Positions 19,517-28,217 of a DNA stretch of 32,116 bases are shown here, piece by piece. The notes beneath the pieces were generated by a model. It did not search any database and had not been told where the DNA came from. It was given only the letters and a program-made list of their open reading frames with translations. Positions within the stretch are counted from its first letter, which is position 1. Every line of letters starts with the position of its first letter. The DNA is from Bordetella parapertussis (GTDB lineage Bacteria; Pseudomonadota; Gammaproteobacteria; Burkholderiales; Burkholderiaceae_E). The stretch lies in contig CAMCXH010000017.1 of the NCBI GenBank assembly GCA_945883285.1, positions 1 to 32,116 of the forward strand, written 5' to 3'. Both the position numbers and the translations under genes were made by a program.

Positions 19517-20113
19517 TCAAAACGGTTCGAGTTTCAGCGCCCCTCGAAAGCGGGTCTTCAGGAACGCGCCGTCACGCGGTGGCAGGACGCGCGGAACGTC
19601 ATCGGCAGCGATGGCGATTCGCGCAAAAAGGCAGCCCTCACGGGCATTGACCAGTGTGCCGAGACGATCGACCGACTCCAGACTGGTCACTGCCTCACAG
19701 CGGCGGATGCCGCAGGCACGCGCCACCTCGATCAGATTGGTACCCAGTCGGGTGTGGCTGGCCTGCATGCCGGTTTCGGCAAAGTGCCCGTTGTCGAGCA
19801 CGACGATACTGAGATTGCCCGGCTGCTGCGCGCCGATGGTGGCCAGTGCGCCAATGCCCATGAGCTGCTCGCCGTCGCCTGTGATGACCAGGACGCTGCG
19901 TCCTGGCTGAGCAAGGGCCAGCCCCAGACCGATCGCGGCAGCACCGCCCATCGCGCCCCAAAGATAGAAATTTTCGGGGCGATCGCCGGCTGCAAAGACA
20001 TCGTAGGCGGCTGAGCCCAGACCGGTCACAACCAGTGCGCCGGGGCTGGCAGCAAGCAGGCGTTTGACCACCGCGCGGCGATCGAGCATCGGTTCATGTG
20101 GTGGTCTGGTCAT
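19517..20113 (-). CDS. ThDP-dependent decarboxylase, small C-terminal subunit (ComE-like)
   Basis: 198 residues from ATG 20113, which overlaps the upstream gene's stop by ATGA. The thiamine-diphosphate binding region is plain: ITGDGEQLMGIGALATIG at ~78-95 and then SIVVLDNGHFAETGMQASHT at ~102-121, the GDG...N motif. The short length and two-gene arrangement match the beta subunit of split sulfopyruvate or phosphonopyruvate decarboxylases (ComD/ComE type). It must pair with the upstream subunit to form an active site. The true substrate (sulfopyruvate, phosphonopyruvate or another 2-oxo acid) is not settled by the sequence. Cytosolic. Confidence 0.88.
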   Translation of the reverse strand: MTRPPHEPMLDRRAVVKRLLAASPGALVVTGLGSAAYDVFAAGDRPENFYLWGAMGGAAAIGLGLALAQPGRSVLVITGDGEQLMGIGALATIGAQQPGNLSIVVLDNGHFAETGMQASHTRLGTNLIEVARACGIRRCEAVTSLESVDRLGTLVNAREGCLFARIAIAADDVPRVLPPRDGAFLKTRFRGALKLEPF

Positions 20114-20649
20114 GGCTTGGCCACCCATTTTTTTCGGCCGATGAGGCGCTGAGACAGCAGGACTGCAATCGGTTCGCCGCTCTCGAACGCCGCATCCAGA
20201 CCGGCCTGCACGACATCGGCCACATCCTCCTCGCGCTCAACCCTCATGACCGTCAATCCCATGGCTTCGAGGACCGGCTGAGTCGCGCGCGACATCGGCA
20301 CCTGCCATGGATTGAACTCGGCAAACTCGCCGCGCATGGTGATCAGCGCGAGAAAGGGGAATCGGCAGTTCTGGATCAGCGACATCATGTTGATGCAGTT
20401 GCCCACACCGCTGCTTTGCATCAGCAGGACCGAACGCTCGCCGCCGAGCCAGGCACCGCAACAGGTTGCAACGCCTTCTTCTTCGGTGGTCAGGACGAGC
20501 GCCCGCATGTCGGGATCGGCATGGACGCGGCGGATGACATGAGCATGGCCGGCATCGGGCACGTAAGCCACCTGCCGGATGCCGCCTCGCTTGAGGATCT
20601 CGAAGATCTGCTCGGGCCAGGCCATCGGCGCCGGCGATGGGTCAGTCAT
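20110..20649 (-). CDS. ThDP-dependent decarboxylase, N-terminal subunit (ComD-like)
   Basis: 179 residues from ATG 20649, with AAGGAAATTCC upstream; the open frame to 20739 overlaps the previous gene. The N-terminal pyrimidine-binding domain of ThDP enzymes is recognisable: QVAYVPDAGHAHVIRRVH, then the activating Glu in TTEEEGVA at ~54-61, then VLLMQSSGVGNCINMMSLI and FPFLALITMRGEFAEFNPWQ. In fused enzymes of this family that Glu starts the cofactor ylide. The 4-nt overlap with the small subunit ensures balanced translation. The substrate is unknown; phosphono- or sulfo-pyruvate are the family precedents. Confidence 0.88.
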   Translation of the reverse strand: MTDPSPAPMAWPEQIFEILKRGGIRQVAYVPDAGHAHVIRRVHADPDMRALVLTTEEEGVATCCGAWLGGERSVLLMQSSGVGNCINMMSLIQNCRFPFLALITMRGEFAEFNPWQVPMSRATQPVLEAMGLTVMRVEREEDVADVVQAGLDAAFESGEPIAVLLSQRLIGRKKWVAKP

Positions 20650-20698
20650 GGAATTTCCTTGCCTGAGGATCAGATGATGGTCGTGCTGCCGGGAGGCC

Positions 20699-21358
20699 TC
20701 ATTCAAGGCCCTCCTGGAGCATCTGCAGACGTTGCACAACCTTGTCGAGCAACTCGGGGCTGCGCTGCTGCTCGTGAATGGCTTGCAGGTTGCTGAGCAT
20801 TCGAATGAGGATCTGTCGTGCCGACGCTGGTCGCAAAAGCCGCTCGACGCTCATGCCATAGGGCGCAGCGCGAATCTCGAGTGCCTCGTAATCGAGGTTT
20901 TTTCCGGTGAAAGGGTCAATGACCACGATGCCTTCATGCAGCGTTGCCTTGACCAGAAAATGCCCTGGAAAGGCGATGCCTTCGATGTCGATGCCGACAT
21001 GCTCGGCCAGTTCGCACAGCAGCACTGCAAGGGTGATCGGAATGCCTTTTCGAGTCTCGATGACGCGGTGAAGATAACTGTTGTCGGCGTTGTAGTAGTC
21101 ATTGGCATTGCCGGCAAACCCCTGTGTGCCATAAACAAAACCAAGAAGCCGTTGCAGTCGAGCCATCTCGGTCGTGGCACCGCGGCAGGCCTGGGACAAA
21201 GCGCGCGCCAGTTCATCGAACTTCGCCAACGTGCCCTGCAGGTCGAGCGCCGGATCGGCATCCTGGCCGATCGACGCTGCAGCCTCAAACAGCGGGATGG
21301 TGTCGGCATCGCTGATCAGCAGCTTGAAATAGGCCAGCTCGGGAATGGCTTGATACAT
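20699..21358 (-). CDS. SirB1/transglutaminase-like family protein
   Basis: 219 residues from ATG 21358. The chain has the SirB1_N plus transglutaminase-like pattern: a helical N-terminus, LLGFVYGTQGFAGNANDYYN, then DNSYLHRVIETRKGIPITLA and CELAEHVGIDIEGIAFPGHF, then IDPFTGKNLDYEAL. The usual Cys/His catalytic set of transglutaminase-like folds is not obvious here, apart from His in FPGHFLV. The family is often called SirB1 and its function is unclear. It reads in the same direction as the decarboxylase genes, 49 nt upstream of them. Confidence 0.85.
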   Translation of the reverse strand: MYQAIPELAYFKLLISDADTIPLFEAAASIGQDADPALDLQGTLAKFDELARALSQACRGATTEMARLQRLLGFVYGTQGFAGNANDYYNADNSYLHRVIETRKGIPITLAVLLCELAEHVGIDIEGIAFPGHFLVKATLHEGIVVIDPFTGKNLDYEALEIRAAPYGMSVERLLRPASARQILIRMLSNLQAIHEQQRSPELLDKVVQRLQMLQEGLE

Positions 21359-24192: not shown

Positions 24193-25137
24193 CTAACCGG
24201 CTGACTTGACCGCATCCTCCCGCCTTACCGCAGGCACCACCGGCGTGAGTCCGCTCATGATGCTCGTGGGGATCTGCTCGATCAGCTGATCGACGGTGAA
24301 CACCGAACCGTCATTGGTCAGGGTCTTGAAGTCTTCGCCGTAGTAGTAAGTGTTGATTCGGCCCTTTTCGACGTGAAAGACATGGCCATTGATTGCATCG
24401 GCCCCGTCAGTGCACAAATAGGCGACCATCGGTGCAATGTGCTCAGGGCCGCGGCCCTCGAAGAAACGGTCGTATTGTTCCTGCGTCATCAGCCCGGCCT
24501 CGAGCTTGCGTTTCTGATTGGCAATCACCGCGTCGTTCATCATCATCCGTGTGTCGGCGGCGGGGCACAAAGCGTTGCAGGTGATGCCGAATTTCGCAGT
24601 TTCCCTGGCGATCGAGCGGGTCAGCCCGATGATGCCGGCCTTGGCCGCACTGTAGTTGCACTGTCCGACCGAGCCTTTGAAGGCATCGGACGAAAAGTTG
24701 ACGATTCGCCCATAGCCCTCGCGCCGCATGTATTTGATTGCATGATGAGACATTGCCCAGTGTCCCTTCAGGTGCACATTGATGACGGTGTCGAAATCGT
24801 CTTCCGACATGTTCCAGATCATGCGCTCGCGAAGCATGCCGGCAACATTGACCAGGATGTCGATCTTGCCGAAGGTATCGACGCACTGCGCGACCATCCG
24901 TCCGGCTTTCTGGTAATCGGCCACGCTGTCATAGTTGGCGATTGCGGTGCCGCCGGCGGCCCTGATCTCGTTGACGACATCGTCGGCCGGTCGCTCGTCG
25001 GTCGGTTCGCCACCGCGCCCGACACCAGGGTCGTTCACGATCACCCGTGCGCCCTCGCGGGCAAGAAGCAGCGCGACATCGCGGCCGATGCCGCGTCCTG
25101 CGCCGGTGACGATGGCGGCTTTGCCTTCAAGGTGCAT
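24193..25137 (-). CDS. Short-chain dehydrogenase/reductase (MFE-2-like)
   Basis: 314 residues from ATG 25137, with GGGAG upstream. The Rossmann motif TGAGRGIG sits at residues 11-18, the NVAG motif at ~97-100, and the catalytic set Ser149/150, Tyr162 and Lys166 in NFSSDAFKGSVGQCNYSAAK. The insertion VIVNDPGVGRGGEPTDERPA is typical of the bifunctional hydroxyacyl-CoA dehydrogenase/MFE-2 subgroup of SDRs. It is cytosolic and should use NAD(P)H. The chain is about 50 residues longer than a minimal SDR, with a C-terminal extension after residue ~250. It is 70 nt downstream of the UGSC selenoprotein gene, across a structured gap, and probably in the same transcript. Confidence 0.9.
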   Translation of the reverse strand: MHLEGKAAIVTGAGRGIGRDVALLLAREGARVIVNDPGVGRGGEPTDERPADDVVNEIRAAGGTAIANYDSVADYQKAGRMVAQCVDTFGKIDILVNVAGMLRERMIWNMSEDDFDTVINVHLKGHWAMSHHAIKYMRREGYGRIVNFSSDAFKGSVGQCNYSAAKAGIIGLTRSIARETAKFGITCNALCPAADTRMMMNDAVIANQKRKLEAGLMTQEQYDRFFEGRGPEHIAPMVAYLCTDGADAINGHVFHVEKGRINTYYYGEDFKTLTNDGSVFTVDQLIEQIPTSIMSGLTPVVPAVRREDAVKSAG

Positions 25138-25207: not shown

Positions 25208-25726
25208 TCAGGGCTTGTTGACCAGCAGCGCCAGAATTGCCTCCAGATGCTGATCGGCCATCGCCTTCATTTCGTCATCGGTGCGATCCTGCACAGGATG
25301 CGGCACAAAAACATAAGCCGGATCGGTACCGAGCGCCCTCGACTGGATGGCGGCTGCATCGATGAATTCAGTGGTGGCGACACCGACCGAGGGAATGCCA
25401 TTGGCTTCGAGATCTGCGAGGTCATGCGTACAGCACGACGTACAGGACCCTCAGTCGGCCAACCCTTCAATCACCACATTGACTTCACCCACGATCTGCT
25501 GACGCAGCGGCAAGGGGGCTGGCTTGGCCACCGTGGGCTTCATGTAGCGCTTGACGACGATGCCCCGCTCGGTGAGCAGTTCATCAAGGCGATCGAGAAA
25601 AACATTGCCTCGCGGCTTCGAGATATCGAGCAGACCGACCGTGAGGCCCTGTAGCTGGTCGGGGCGCGCCAGCCTTTCGCGTGACGTCGGACTTTGCTCC
25701 GCCGTCGGATCCATGATGACAGTCAT
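25208..25726 (-). CDS. UGSC family selenoprotein (in-frame UGA = Sec)
   Basis: 172 residues if UGA at 25453-25451 is read as selenocysteine (position 92). The start ATG 25726, with AGAGGTGAAATC upstream, overlaps the partner gene's stop by ATGA. The N-terminal part reads LTVGLLDISKPRGNVFLDRL, a line found at the start of UGSC proteins. Before the UGA comes VNVVIEGLAD; after it, GSCTSCCTHDLADLEANGIP, then SVGVATTEFIDAAAIQSRAL and a closing VFVPHPVQDRTDDE. The frame is open and typical on both sides, so the UGA splits one protein rather than ending it. The motif U-G-S-C-T matches the UGSC (seleno)protein family, where Cys-containing forms have CGSCT. Function is unproven; a thiol/selenol redox role is inferred. 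Reading it needs selA/B/C/D elsewhere. Confidence 0.9.
25418..25452 (-). promoter_or_regulatory. Candidate bacterial SECIS hairpin after the UGA
   Basis: The mRNA right after the UGA can fold: an outer stem GAGG/CCUC region (25452-25449 with 25421-25418), a short inner pair, then an apical helix GUAC (25443-25440) with GUAC (25431-25428) closing an 8-nt loop GUCGUGCU that begins with GU. A bacterial SECIS must lie within the coding region just downstream of the UGA. The apical helix starts 7 nt after the UGA, closer than the about 11 nt I recall for E. coli fdhF, so the match is suggestive only. Confidence 0.5.
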
Positions 25727-27174
25727 GATTTCACCTCTCTGTTGACAGGCAGCGATCCGGCTGCACCGCCGGAAGACCAGCCGCCGATGATGCCGGAGAA
25801 CATCCCGGCGCCGCCGCCCGCGCGAACAATCAGCAGTCCGCCCGGGCGAAATTTGTTCCGTGTGGTGCCTGCAACCGACTCGGGATAGCCCTCGTCGATA
25901 CCCCTGACGCCCCGCACCAGGCTGTCGCCCGGTATTTCGCAAAGCTGCATCAATTCGCCGAGCAATCGCTGTTTGCTCCAGCCGGCCTGCCTGAAGGTGC
26001 GCTCGTGCTCGGGGCAAACCACCAGCATCGCGTCGCAGGCGGGTGCGAGCTTGACGTTGTGAATCGCCTTGAGTGACTCGGCCATGCTGCGCGCAAGGCT
26101 CTCGGGAGTTCGAGATTTCTGGTCGACGATGCCCTGGAGTCCGAATCCGGCAAAGACCGTGACGCTCGAGACGCCAGGTGCAAGCCCGAAATCGCTCGAC
26201 AGGGGCTCCCAGGACGACCCTTCCTCGTCCTCGGCGAAGCAGTAGGTGTATTTGCCGGGATTGCCGAGCGTGGCCCGGTCGACCTCCTGCGGCCTGCCGC
26301 CGCCGACATTGCGAATGACGAGTTGCAAGGCCCGACCGATGGTTGCATTGGCACGGTTGCCCTGGCCGAGCGCATTGCCGCGGGCGTTCATCGAAATCTG
26401 CCGGCGTATCGGGCCATTCACCACCAGCACCGGCCCGACGAACATCGTGGTCGCAAGCACGCCGTGCATGGCAAAGGCAGGATCGAGCACCGCTTCGACC
26501 GCAGCGAGCACGACCGGCAGATACTCAGGCTTGCAGCCTGCCATGACCGCGTTGATCGCAACCTTTTCAACCGTCAGCGGCACCAGATTGGGCGGACACA
26601 CGCCGATCACTTCCTTGGGATCACGGGTGGTGCCACCGAGCATGCGCAGCACCCGGCGTTGAGTCGGCGGCACGACTGGCAACCCGTCTGTCCAGCCGCG
26701 CTCGTAGATCGCCTCGATCTCGTCCTCGTCCTCACCGAATTCAACTTTCCGAGCGGTCAATCCGGTCTGCTCGAAACGGATCAGCAGATCTTCGAGCTTC
26801 GCCGGCTCGACATTCAGCGCCCCGCAACCCGGGCGCATGGCAGGCAAGTCGGCGCCGAGTCTTTCCTGCCCGCTCACGCGCTGCCACTCGTTGCGATCCC
26901 AGCCGTAAGTGCGGTCGATCTCGGCGCCGGCCGCGCGACGGATCAGCGTTGGAACGATGTCGATGGCCAGGGCATGCGACACATTCAGTGCAGTGTCGTC
27001 AACCGGATGTCCAATCGATTCGGGAAAGGCCGGGTCGTCCTGCGTAAAGACCGTCAGATTGCCGCCCATGGCCAGCTCGGCCAGCACCGGCTCGATCAGG
27101 ACGCAGGTCGGGCAATCGCGTTTGACGACGGCGATCAGGCCTTCTACGGGTAGCGACACACGCGCAATGCTCAT
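25723..27174 (-). CDS. Thioredoxin-fold protein, partner of the UGSC selenoprotein
   Basis: 483 residues from ATG 27174, with AGGAGA upstream. Residues ~1-110 form a thioredoxin-like domain: the CPTC motif has Cys21 and Cys24 (VVKRDCPTCVLIEPV), and the cis-proline is Pro75 in IDIVPTLIRR. The rest (~155-480) is a large conserved domain with GWTDGLPVVPPTQRRVLRML, VEKVAINAVMAGCKPEYLPV, GPVLVVNGPIRRQISMN, then NATIGRALQLVIRNVGGGRP and GNPGKYTYCFAEDEEGSSWE. I remember this domain next to UGSC genes but cannot assign a reaction. Cysteines in MAGCKPEY and VCPEHE might be functional. Its stop overlaps the UGSC start by ATGA. Likely role: redox partner or catalytic subunit of a selenoprotein complex (inference). 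Confidence 0.85.
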   Translation of the reverse strand: MSIARVSLPVEGLIAVVKRDCPTCVLIEPVLAELAMGGNLTVFTQDDPAFPESIGHPVDDTALNVSHALAIDIVPTLIRRAAGAEIDRTYGWDRNEWQRVSGQERLGADLPAMRPGCGALNVEPAKLEDLLIRFEQTGLTARKVEFGEDEDEIEAIYERGWTDGLPVVPPTQRRVLRMLGGTTRDPKEVIGVCPPNLVPLTVEKVAINAVMAGCKPEYLPVVLAAVEAVLDPAFAMHGVLATTMFVGPVLVVNGPIRRQISMNARGNALGQGNRANATIGRALQLVIRNVGGGRPQEVDRATLGNPGKYTYCFAEDEEGSSWEPLSSDFGLAPGVSSVTVFAGFGLQGIVDQKSRTPESLARSMAESLKAIHNVKLAPACDAMLVVCPEHERTFRQAGWSKQRLLGELMQLCEIPGDSLVRGVRGIDEGYPESVAGTTRNKFRPGGLLIVRAGGGAGMFSGIIGGWSSGGAAGSLPVNREVKS

Positions 27175-27194: not shown

Positions 27195-28064
27195 TCAGCG
27201 CGGTGCGAGCTTGTCCTGCGTTTTGGTATCGAAGTCGCTCGCGTCATGGCGCTCGTGCAGCTGGTTTGCCGGATCGCCCATCAATCGATTCACCATCCGA
27301 CCGCGCTTGACGGCAGGTCGCAGGGCGATCTGATCGGTCCAGCGCTGAACATGCTTGTATTCCTGGACCTGCAAAAATTCGCCGCCGCCATAGAGCAGAC
27401 CCTTGGCCAGCGCGCCATACCAGGGCCAGATCGCAATATCGGCGATCGAATAATCCTGACCGGCCATGTATTCGCTCGTGGCCAGATGACGATCAAGGAC
27501 GTCGAGCTGGCGCTTGACCTCCATGGCAAAGCGATCGATGGCGTATTCGATTTTCGTCGGTGCATAGGCATAGAAATGGCCAAAGCCGCCGCCCAGGTAG
27601 GGCGCACTGCCCATCTGCCAGAAGAGCCACGACAGACAGGCAGCCCGTGCCTGGCCCTGTGCAGGAAGGAAGACGCCGAACTTTTCGGCCAGATGCAGCA
27701 GGATCGCGCCCGACTCGAAGACATTGATCGGCGTGGCGCCGCTGCGATCAACCAGCGCAGGAATCTTCGAGTTGGGATTGGCGTCGACGAAACCGCTGCC
27801 GAACTGGTCGCCCTCGCTGATGCGGATCAGCCAGGCATCGTATTCGGCGCCGGTGTGCCCAAGCGCAAGCAACTCCTCGAGCATGACCGTGACCTTCACA
27901 CCGTTGGGCGTCCCAAGCGAGTAGAGCTGCATCGGGTGACGACCGATCGGCAGATCCTTGTCATGCGTCGCGCCTGCGATCGGTCGATTGATATTGGCGA
28001 AACGTCCGCCGCTGGCCTTGTTCCAGGTCCAGATTTGCGCGGGCGCATAAGTCGCATCGGTCAT
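27195..28064 (-). CDS. yghU: Glutathione S-transferase-like protein, YghU family
   Basis: 289 residues from ATG 28064, with AGGAG upstream; the open frame to 28154 is not used. The N-terminal extension (~1-44) with IWTWNKASGGRFANINRPIA is the YghU hallmark. The thioredoxin-fold domain starts at MQLYSLGTPNGVKVTVMLEE; the glutathione-contact segment is NVFESGAILLHLAEKFG, and the all-helical domain has YSIADIAIWPWYG and a YAIDRFAMEVKRQLDVLDRH segment. YghU enzymes act on glutathione disulfides or hydroperoxides rather than classic conjugation, in the cytosol. It begins 20 nt upstream of the selenoprotein partner gene and is likely the first gene of that transcript. Confidence 0.88.
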   Translation of the reverse strand: MTDATYAPAQIWTWNKASGGRFANINRPIAGATHDKDLPIGRHPMQLYSLGTPNGVKVTVMLEELLALGHTGAEYDAWLIRISEGDQFGSGFVDANPNSKIPALVDRSGATPINVFESGAILLHLAEKFGVFLPAQGQARAACLSWLFWQMGSAPYLGGGFGHFYAYAPTKIEYAIDRFAMEVKRQLDVLDRHLATSEYMAGQDYSIADIAIWPWYGALAKGLLYGGGEFLQVQEYKHVQRWTDQIALRPAVKRGRMVNRLMGDPANQLHERHDASDFDTKTQDKLAPR

Positions 28065-28217
28065 GTGGTCGGGGCTCCTGCCGTGATATGAGTGATCACG
28101 CATCGACATGAGCGTGTTCTGGTAGAAGATAGCGAACCCGCGTGGCCAAGTCACCAGACTTGTTCACACACGGTCCGCTTTTGAGAAATTCGACCAACCA
28201 GCGTGCAAGGAAGCGCC

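Follow-up and report, generated by a model that had tools for sequence, protein, structure and literature searches.

Selenocysteine (Sec) is a costly residue, and the locus described here raises the question whether a bacterial reading frame broken by a TGA codon is one gene that is translated through this codon as a selenoprotein and, if so, in what kind of enzyme the residue might act. The locus lies on the reverse strand of a 32,116-nucleotide stretch of DNA (contig CAMCXH010000017.1 of the Bordetella parapertussis assembly GCA_945883285.1), to which we refer as the window, and comprises a gene of the UGSC family and an overlapping second gene, here called the partner gene (Table 1). A sequence-only reading of the window had proposed a single gene spanning UGA 25453-25451, and this proposal is borne out: one frame runs from 25726 to 25208, with coordinates and residues correct, and translates, with TGA as U, into ...IEGLAD-U-GSCTSCCTHDLADLEANGIP...VPHPV..., where residues 92-95 form the [U/C]GSC motif of the family. 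Under translation table 11 this frame terminates at TGA 25453-25451, and no in-frame open reading frame of at least 50 aa is listed beyond it. The read-through protein scores 146.6 bits against NF041046 (cut-off 125) and 142.5 bits against PF24696 (cut-off 25). Searched separately, the two halves each independently match their own part of PF24696 (profile positions 2-92 with E 4.8e-14 before the TGA, 94-171 with E 9.6e-19 after it), and chance is not a reasonable explanation of such a two-half match between sequences. The two genes overlap by ATGA (25726-25723), and AGAGAGG at 25740-25734 could plausibly serve as ribosome site. The gene had also been called hidden, which holds in so far as annotation can truncate such genes, but not for the family, which has been described since 2008 and has both Pfam and NCBIfam models. 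On plasmid p2-T1 of Acidovorax sp. T1 (L168:7986-8516), the deposited UGSC gene stops precisely at the TGA; this plasmid is typed as conjugative, and IS1071- and IS91-type elements are found upstream of its UGSC gene.

A TGA in this position could be a genuine stop or arise from misassembly, the gene being a decayed or mis-sequenced Cys gene. Damaged copies do exist elsewhere. For example, the CGSC gene of genome G277 (L027 / L030) has a TGA at another site together with a frame break, in a genome with no clear tRNA-Sec, and is probably decaying; similarly, three of the 54 TGA-bearing rows of G664, a metagenome-assembled genome (MAG) of the same order (98% complete, 2% contaminated; loci L171-L210), carry a further stop. 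In the window, by contrast, each half is still recognisable as UGSC family, and the same TGA recurs with a hairpin (described below) in a second UGSC gene of the same genome (contig 38; L020:3646-4069, L234), which has its own ATGA overlap with a second partner gene and is truncated by the contig end. Four further pairs of the window type in three genomes of the same family, and one in genome G311, likewise have the TGA and a like hairpin. The Sec column could be located in 206 UGSC rows, of which 118 have TGA and 88 Cys; in all 118 TGA-bearing rows (67 + 51) the codon falls at exactly this column, and a TGA at some other position occurs in two of the 88 Cys rows (one place, shared by two loci). 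Since these rows include some places present in two loci, the count of distinct 42-nt sequences is 101 for TGA and 81 for Cys, so that the alignment to Cys homologues that had been called for places the TGA opposite Cys in 81 distinct sequences. A one-base sequencing error is very unlikely because of the second copy in the same genome, the four same-family copies and the 101 distinct TGA sequences.

The genome also holds the machinery whose absence the sequence-only reading had named as a possible objection. Its assembly (3.5 Mb, 249 contigs, 93.9% complete) contains selA (571.8 bits), selB (337.4 bits, or 378.5 joined), selD (425.2 bits) and selC, a tRNA-Sec of 70 bits that ARAGORN calls as tRNA-SeC with anticodon tca; selA, selB and the tRNA gene share one contig and selD lies on another. 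A tRNA-Sec of at least 70 bits, a threshold of our own choosing (the gathering score is 47 and is passed by some other tRNAs), was found in 24 of 27 UGSC genomes tested. The remaining three are G143 with a Cys form, G277 with its damaged Cys form, and G723, which is 83% complete.

Bacterial Sec insertion elements (bSECIS) carry a G in the apical loop of a hairpin just after the UGA, and such a hairpin is found in the window and in most Sec genes of the family. In the window it starts 14 nt, and its loop 21 nt, after the U of the UGA, and across the UGA-bearing genes the loop mostly begins 20-23 nt past this U. The apical-loop G-U occurs in 97 of 100 distinct Sec sequences, where synonymous recoding leads one to expect 26.3, and in 6 of 79 Cys homologues (7.8 expected). 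Mean folding energy is -15.4 kcal/mol for Sec and -8.35 kcal/mol for Cys sequences, with mean z-scores of -1.85 and 0.02. The 7-bp stem is 97.8% paired across 71 aligned sequences, a percentage biased upward because the stem register was chosen by pairing, a choice of which the G-U loop test is free. The stem also covaries, with 42 double-changed cells against a shuffled mean of 12.5 (none of 500 shuffles as high, slid versions at most 7), and one pair is GC in 44 and CG in 27 sequences. This set consists of 71 of the 73 main-register sequences, two being omitted, as were 20 more that fit better when shifted by one base. A covarying hairpin that is mostly missing from Cys homologues speaks against decay or error, which we consider extremely improbable. 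Family match, Cys alignment, hairpin and Sec machinery together support the selenoprotein reading, and on these sequence comparisons the UGSC gene of the window is almost certainly translated through its UGA as a Sec protein. Judged from a FastTree tree of 188 UGSC rows (107 Sec, 81 Cys), the exchange between Sec and Cys is recurrent; the tree needs a minimum of 11 label changes, and three of them are forced by starred branches; the number of changes is unsure.

The UGSC gene seldom stands alone. Cys-form UGSC genes led to 80 named loci. In 77 of these the partner either shares a frame with UGSC (28 loci) or is encoded on the same strand no more than 500 bp away (upstream in 34, downstream in 15); in the other three it is about 1.4 kb away (two loci) or was not found (one). 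Named Sec homologues were not sought among the genome contigs, because the pattern searched there was Cys-only; L028 and L051 are probably one genome. In the stretches of G664, a same-strand partner stands within 130 bp of 50 of 52 UGSC domains, the other two being one that is truncated at the stretch end and one with an extra stop. The profile behind these counts is in the correct frame for the window and its close group, though it includes a few distant rows with unaligned upstream translation; an earlier partner search had used four seeds, one of them in the wrong frame. Side by side with their partner, Cys-form UGSC genes were also seen in halophilic archaea and a Methanobacteriaceae MAG (L058, L061, L067, L103, L107), and about 1.4 kb from it in two other Methanobacteriaceae MAGs (L089, L105). 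Viral contigs gave 20 pattern matches and no true relatives.

The partner of the window consists of an N-terminal domain and a core of about 330 residues to which no Pfam or NCBIfam family matched. Among 44 partner relatives, thioredoxin models alone recur with any strength (best E 2.2e-5, in up to 10 members), and Cys214 and Cys312 of the core are conserved in 43. Residues 3-103 match thioredoxin-like chains in a structural comparison that spans this domain and not the core, and they contain a CxxC motif, so that both fold and motif are those of a thioredoxin, from which the protein differs by the fusion to its unnamed core. CxTC is present in 27 of 29 close partner rows; the other two are cut at locus ends, and one of them, later read whole, has CHTC. 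For the fold of the core, the best Foldseek hits (class I fumarase, cyclic amide hydrolase) had template modelling scores below 0.26, and nothing was drawn from them.

Table 1. Features of the UGSC locus and its immediate surroundings (positions in the window).
Feature	Position	Strand	Remarks
UGSC-family gene, predicted selenoprotein	25208..25726	-	172 aa via one read-through UGA; terminal TGA 25210-25208
In-frame TGA, predicted selenocysteine, residue 92	25451..25453	-	aligned with Cys in homologues; TGA also in second copy of the same genome
bSECIS-type hairpin	25421..25439	-	7-bp stem GUCGUGC/GCAUGAC; apical loop UGUAC with G-U
Shine-Dalgarno-like AGAGAGG	25734..25740	-	7 nt ahead of UGSC ATG; from sequence
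Partner gene	25723..27174	-	483 aa; ATGA overlap with UGSC; conserved Cys214 and Cys312
N-terminal thioredoxin-fold domain of partner	26866..27174	-	CPTC at 27103-27114; Z up to 9.9
YghU-type glutathione-dependent disulfide-bond oxidoreductase	27195..28154	-	NF008731, 520.7 bits (cut-off 325)
Short-chain dehydrogenase (SDR) gene	24193..25137	-	70 bp downstream of UGSC, same strand

UGSC genes were found in 5 of 398 sampled genomes of the phylum and in 44 of 399 genomes of the order (41 above the family cut-off), the present genome included in both. Where they occur, they can be numerous: the matches per genome in 23 genomes of the order (scored at E 1e-3 or E 1e-5, fragments included) are 58 in G664, then 26, 24, 19, 19, 18, 18, 16, 14 and fewer, with 1, 2 and 1 in the three genomes of the same family. 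In G664, 51 of the 54 TGA-bearing rows have no other stop, and four of the 58 rows are without the TGA; the stretches cover 52 of the 58 matches, 51 of which show TGA at the Sec column, the remaining one lacking that column. Strain mixing or assembly duplication was rejected as a source of these copies for the 50 UGSC domains compared, whose median identity is 27% and highest 75%. A genome-wide reassignment of TGA was likewise rejected, TGA being an ordinary stop elsewhere in the stretches: it ends 24 of 50 partner frames and 47 of 149 frames of TctC-type genes, and in-frame TGA occurs 51 times in 8,461 UGSC residues against once in 17,641 partner and six times in 44,476 TctC-type residues. 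According to a review of May 2026, the largest bacterial selenoprotein sets number 57 and 63 genes with all families taken together (PMC13188914), deep-Sep reports 46 selenoprotein genes (PMC12013277), and a mainly anaerobic way of life is ascribed to the bacteria that have the most selenoproteins (PMC13188914, PMC5029168). The titles, abstracts and passages of the open literature that were covered, one relevant 2025 study lying outside this coverage, contain no mention of such an expansion, and the set of G664 may be the largest selenoprotein expansion within one family.

What the UGSC protein does can be approached through its Sec region. Of 45 UGSC proteins, 31 hit the GrdB model TIGR01917 at E <=1 (best 1.3e-5), the window protein matching it through its Sec region at residues 81-151. 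In the Sec proteins of glycine, sarcosine and betaine reductase (protein B: GrdB, GrdF, GrdH) and in D-proline reductase PrdB, the pattern U-G-x-C-T-x-C ... G(I/V)P-x-V aligns with UGSC, and GrdB-type systems and UGSC alike have a second subunit gene alongside. In this region UGSC aligns with a GrdB-type protein of G664 with an hhalign probability of 87.6% (E 3.5e-6) and, by BLAST, an E of 2e-4 for the single comparison. That protein is encoded at L211:1483-4049 by a selenoprotein gene with its own TGA (...ILVSTUGTCTRC...), which adjoins a GrdE/FarE-like gene; its best models are of the sarcosine type, and the general TIGR01918 is the sole model whose cut-off it passes. A possible precedent is the fluoroacetate reductase FarB/FarE, for which the GrdB-type Sec is proposed to attack the activated carbon of a carboxylic acid and duplicated GrdB genes are described as serving other substrates, a proposed case of retargeting of a GrdB-type pair (PMC10838667). 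FarB and FarE differ from the present pair in being GrdB/GrdE homologues of an anaerobic fermenter, and the UGSC domain is not mentioned in the passages of that report available to us.

The family itself was described in a 2008 survey of Global Ocean Sampling (GOS) data, which counted 255 Sec and 21 Cys members of the same sequence type, UGSC motif and Sec decoding (PMC2398784; PF24696, NF041046) and suggested a thioredoxin-like redox role. UGSC might accordingly be a general antioxidant or thiol-disulfide redox protein of thioredoxin-like fold rather than the subunit of a substrate-specific reductase; the UxxC motif and the adjoining YghU-type glutathione enzyme would fit such a role. The predicted fold, of a flavodoxin- or receiver-like alpha/beta type, speaks rather against this. 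The model (m62e77aa1ff5b; predicted local distance difference test, pLDDT, 92.6, with Sec modelled as Cys) has five alternating strands and helices with the Sec at the start of a helix. Its best structural match is chain H of 8s7v (Z 12.1, 130 residues, 2.9 A), from the activation complex of methyl-coenzyme M reductase. Next come a designed protein and numerous chains of receiver or flavodoxin type; thioredoxins are absent among the 50 matches listed, though they may be present further down. Besides, a separate thioredoxin domain sits in the partner, and the dozens of divergent paralogues in one genome, nearly all with a partner, look like substrate diversification. We therefore regard a general redox role as unlikely. 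New relative to the family as published in 2008 are the overlapping partner of the window, which contains a thioredoxin domain of its own, and the 54 TGA-bearing matches in one genome of the order; that survey had already reported UGSC fused to a domain called Unknown_1 (PMC2398784).

The UGSC/partner pair could, alternatively, be a catabolic module for a carboxylic acid that enters the cell by way of a TctC-type binding protein. In 36 of the 40 G664 stretches TctC-type genes do occur no more than 3 kb from UGSC, and on three of four plasmid records examined one or more stand at about 2-6 kb (none is listed in the fourth). Their density near UGSC, at 2.6 (0-2 kb) and 3.0 (2-4 kb) per 10 kb, is nevertheless that found at 4-8 kb (2.5-2.6), and it is lower solely at 8-12 kb (1.1 per 10 kb, from four genes). 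There is no TctC-type gene in the window, and just 7 of the 80 Cys loci have one, while G664 is TctC-rich throughout, with 995 first-look candidates. We give this explanation little credence as well. An initial neighbour cluster of 123 proteins in 38 of 40 stretches, which we take to be of the TctC type (PF03401 matches occur in the same stretches), was mostly removed as a sign of coupling by the distance control. All 150 of the 150 candidates scored match PF03401, which makes the binding proteins of G664 a very large expansion in their own right.

Our best explanation, which as a whole we hold to be probable, combines Sec decoding with a two-subunit enzyme and Sec chemistry recycled by a thioredoxin. 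Translation of UGSC would start at ATG 25726 and pass through UGA 25453-25451 with the help of the cell's own SelA, SelB, SelC and SelD, with the hairpin predicted to recruit SelB. The UGSC product and that of the overlapping partner gene, whose pairing is a genetic observation, would form a two-subunit enzyme, in which the Sec is modelled at the helix start of a flavodoxin-like alpha/beta domain. As proposed for GrdB-type Sec, it might attack a bond of a small molecule that the partner core would hold as substrate; a selenenylsulfide with a neighbouring Cys would follow and be reduced by the partner's own thioredoxin domain. Sequence comparison is what establishes Sec decoding, partner pairing and the partner thioredoxin domain, and by analogy the GrdB-like Sec region suggests a reductive enzyme that depends on Sec and carries a thioredoxin itself.

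Several results weigh against this explanation. The hairpin of the window is unremarkable as a single sequence (z -1.61; 14 of 200 shuffles as low), of 100 Sec genes taken singly just 29 have an extreme folding energy relative to synonymous shuffles, and Rfam gave nothing above the gathering score at the hairpin, with one chance match below it. The window protein scores 18-19 bits against GrdB models with cut-offs of 602 and 800 (18.3 against 602.2 for TIGR01917), so that the homology found is that of the Sec region and not of a full-length GrdB. A GrdE-like nature of the partner was not supported, hhalign giving a probability of 0.2% against one GrdE-like protein of G664, so that the analogy with GrdB comes down to a single stretch of about 70 residues. 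Most partners outside the window subtype are without an N-terminal thioredoxin domain. The UGSC protein, its selenium content and its activity are predictions from sequence. Because the alignment with GrdB and PrdB is confined to the Sec region and the partner is unmatched to a GrdE, UGSC falls outside the GrdB family as a whole, yet it may work like the GrdB Sec domain.

As to the surroundings, the YghU-type gene lies 20 bp upstream of the partner gene on the same strand, and a homologue was found about 1-4.5 kb from UGSC in three of four same-family loci, though neither near the fourth nor around the second UGSC copy of the same genome; this neighbourhood is weak evidence, because the loci are close kin. 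The SDR gene is not conserved beside UGSC, with weak hits (27-32% identity) in 3 of 39 loci searched. Downstream of it lies a sulfatase gene (PF00884; 22013-23926, reverse strand), and at 19517-20739 on the same strand a gene pair resembles the subunits of a thiamine-pyrophosphate sulfopyruvate/phosphonopyruvate decarboxylase, below curated cut-offs.

The family is already known, having been in print since 2008, and what deserves to be followed up is the partner, the likeness of the Sec site to GrdB, and the number of copies. A bolder joint reading, to which we give slightly less than an even chance, is that these proteins form a new class of reductase that is Sec-dependent and substrate-specific, joining a Sec domain of GrdB type to a substrate-binding core without a name and, in the window subtype, to an integral thioredoxin, and that about 50 functional Sec paralogues in one genome of the order represent the largest use of selenocysteine by one family known. 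If true, some 50 diverged Sec paralogues of a single uncharacterised enzyme would mean that selenium chemistry serves as a broad toolkit, and the partner would give a handle on the function of a very common aquatic selenoprotein family (PMC2398784).
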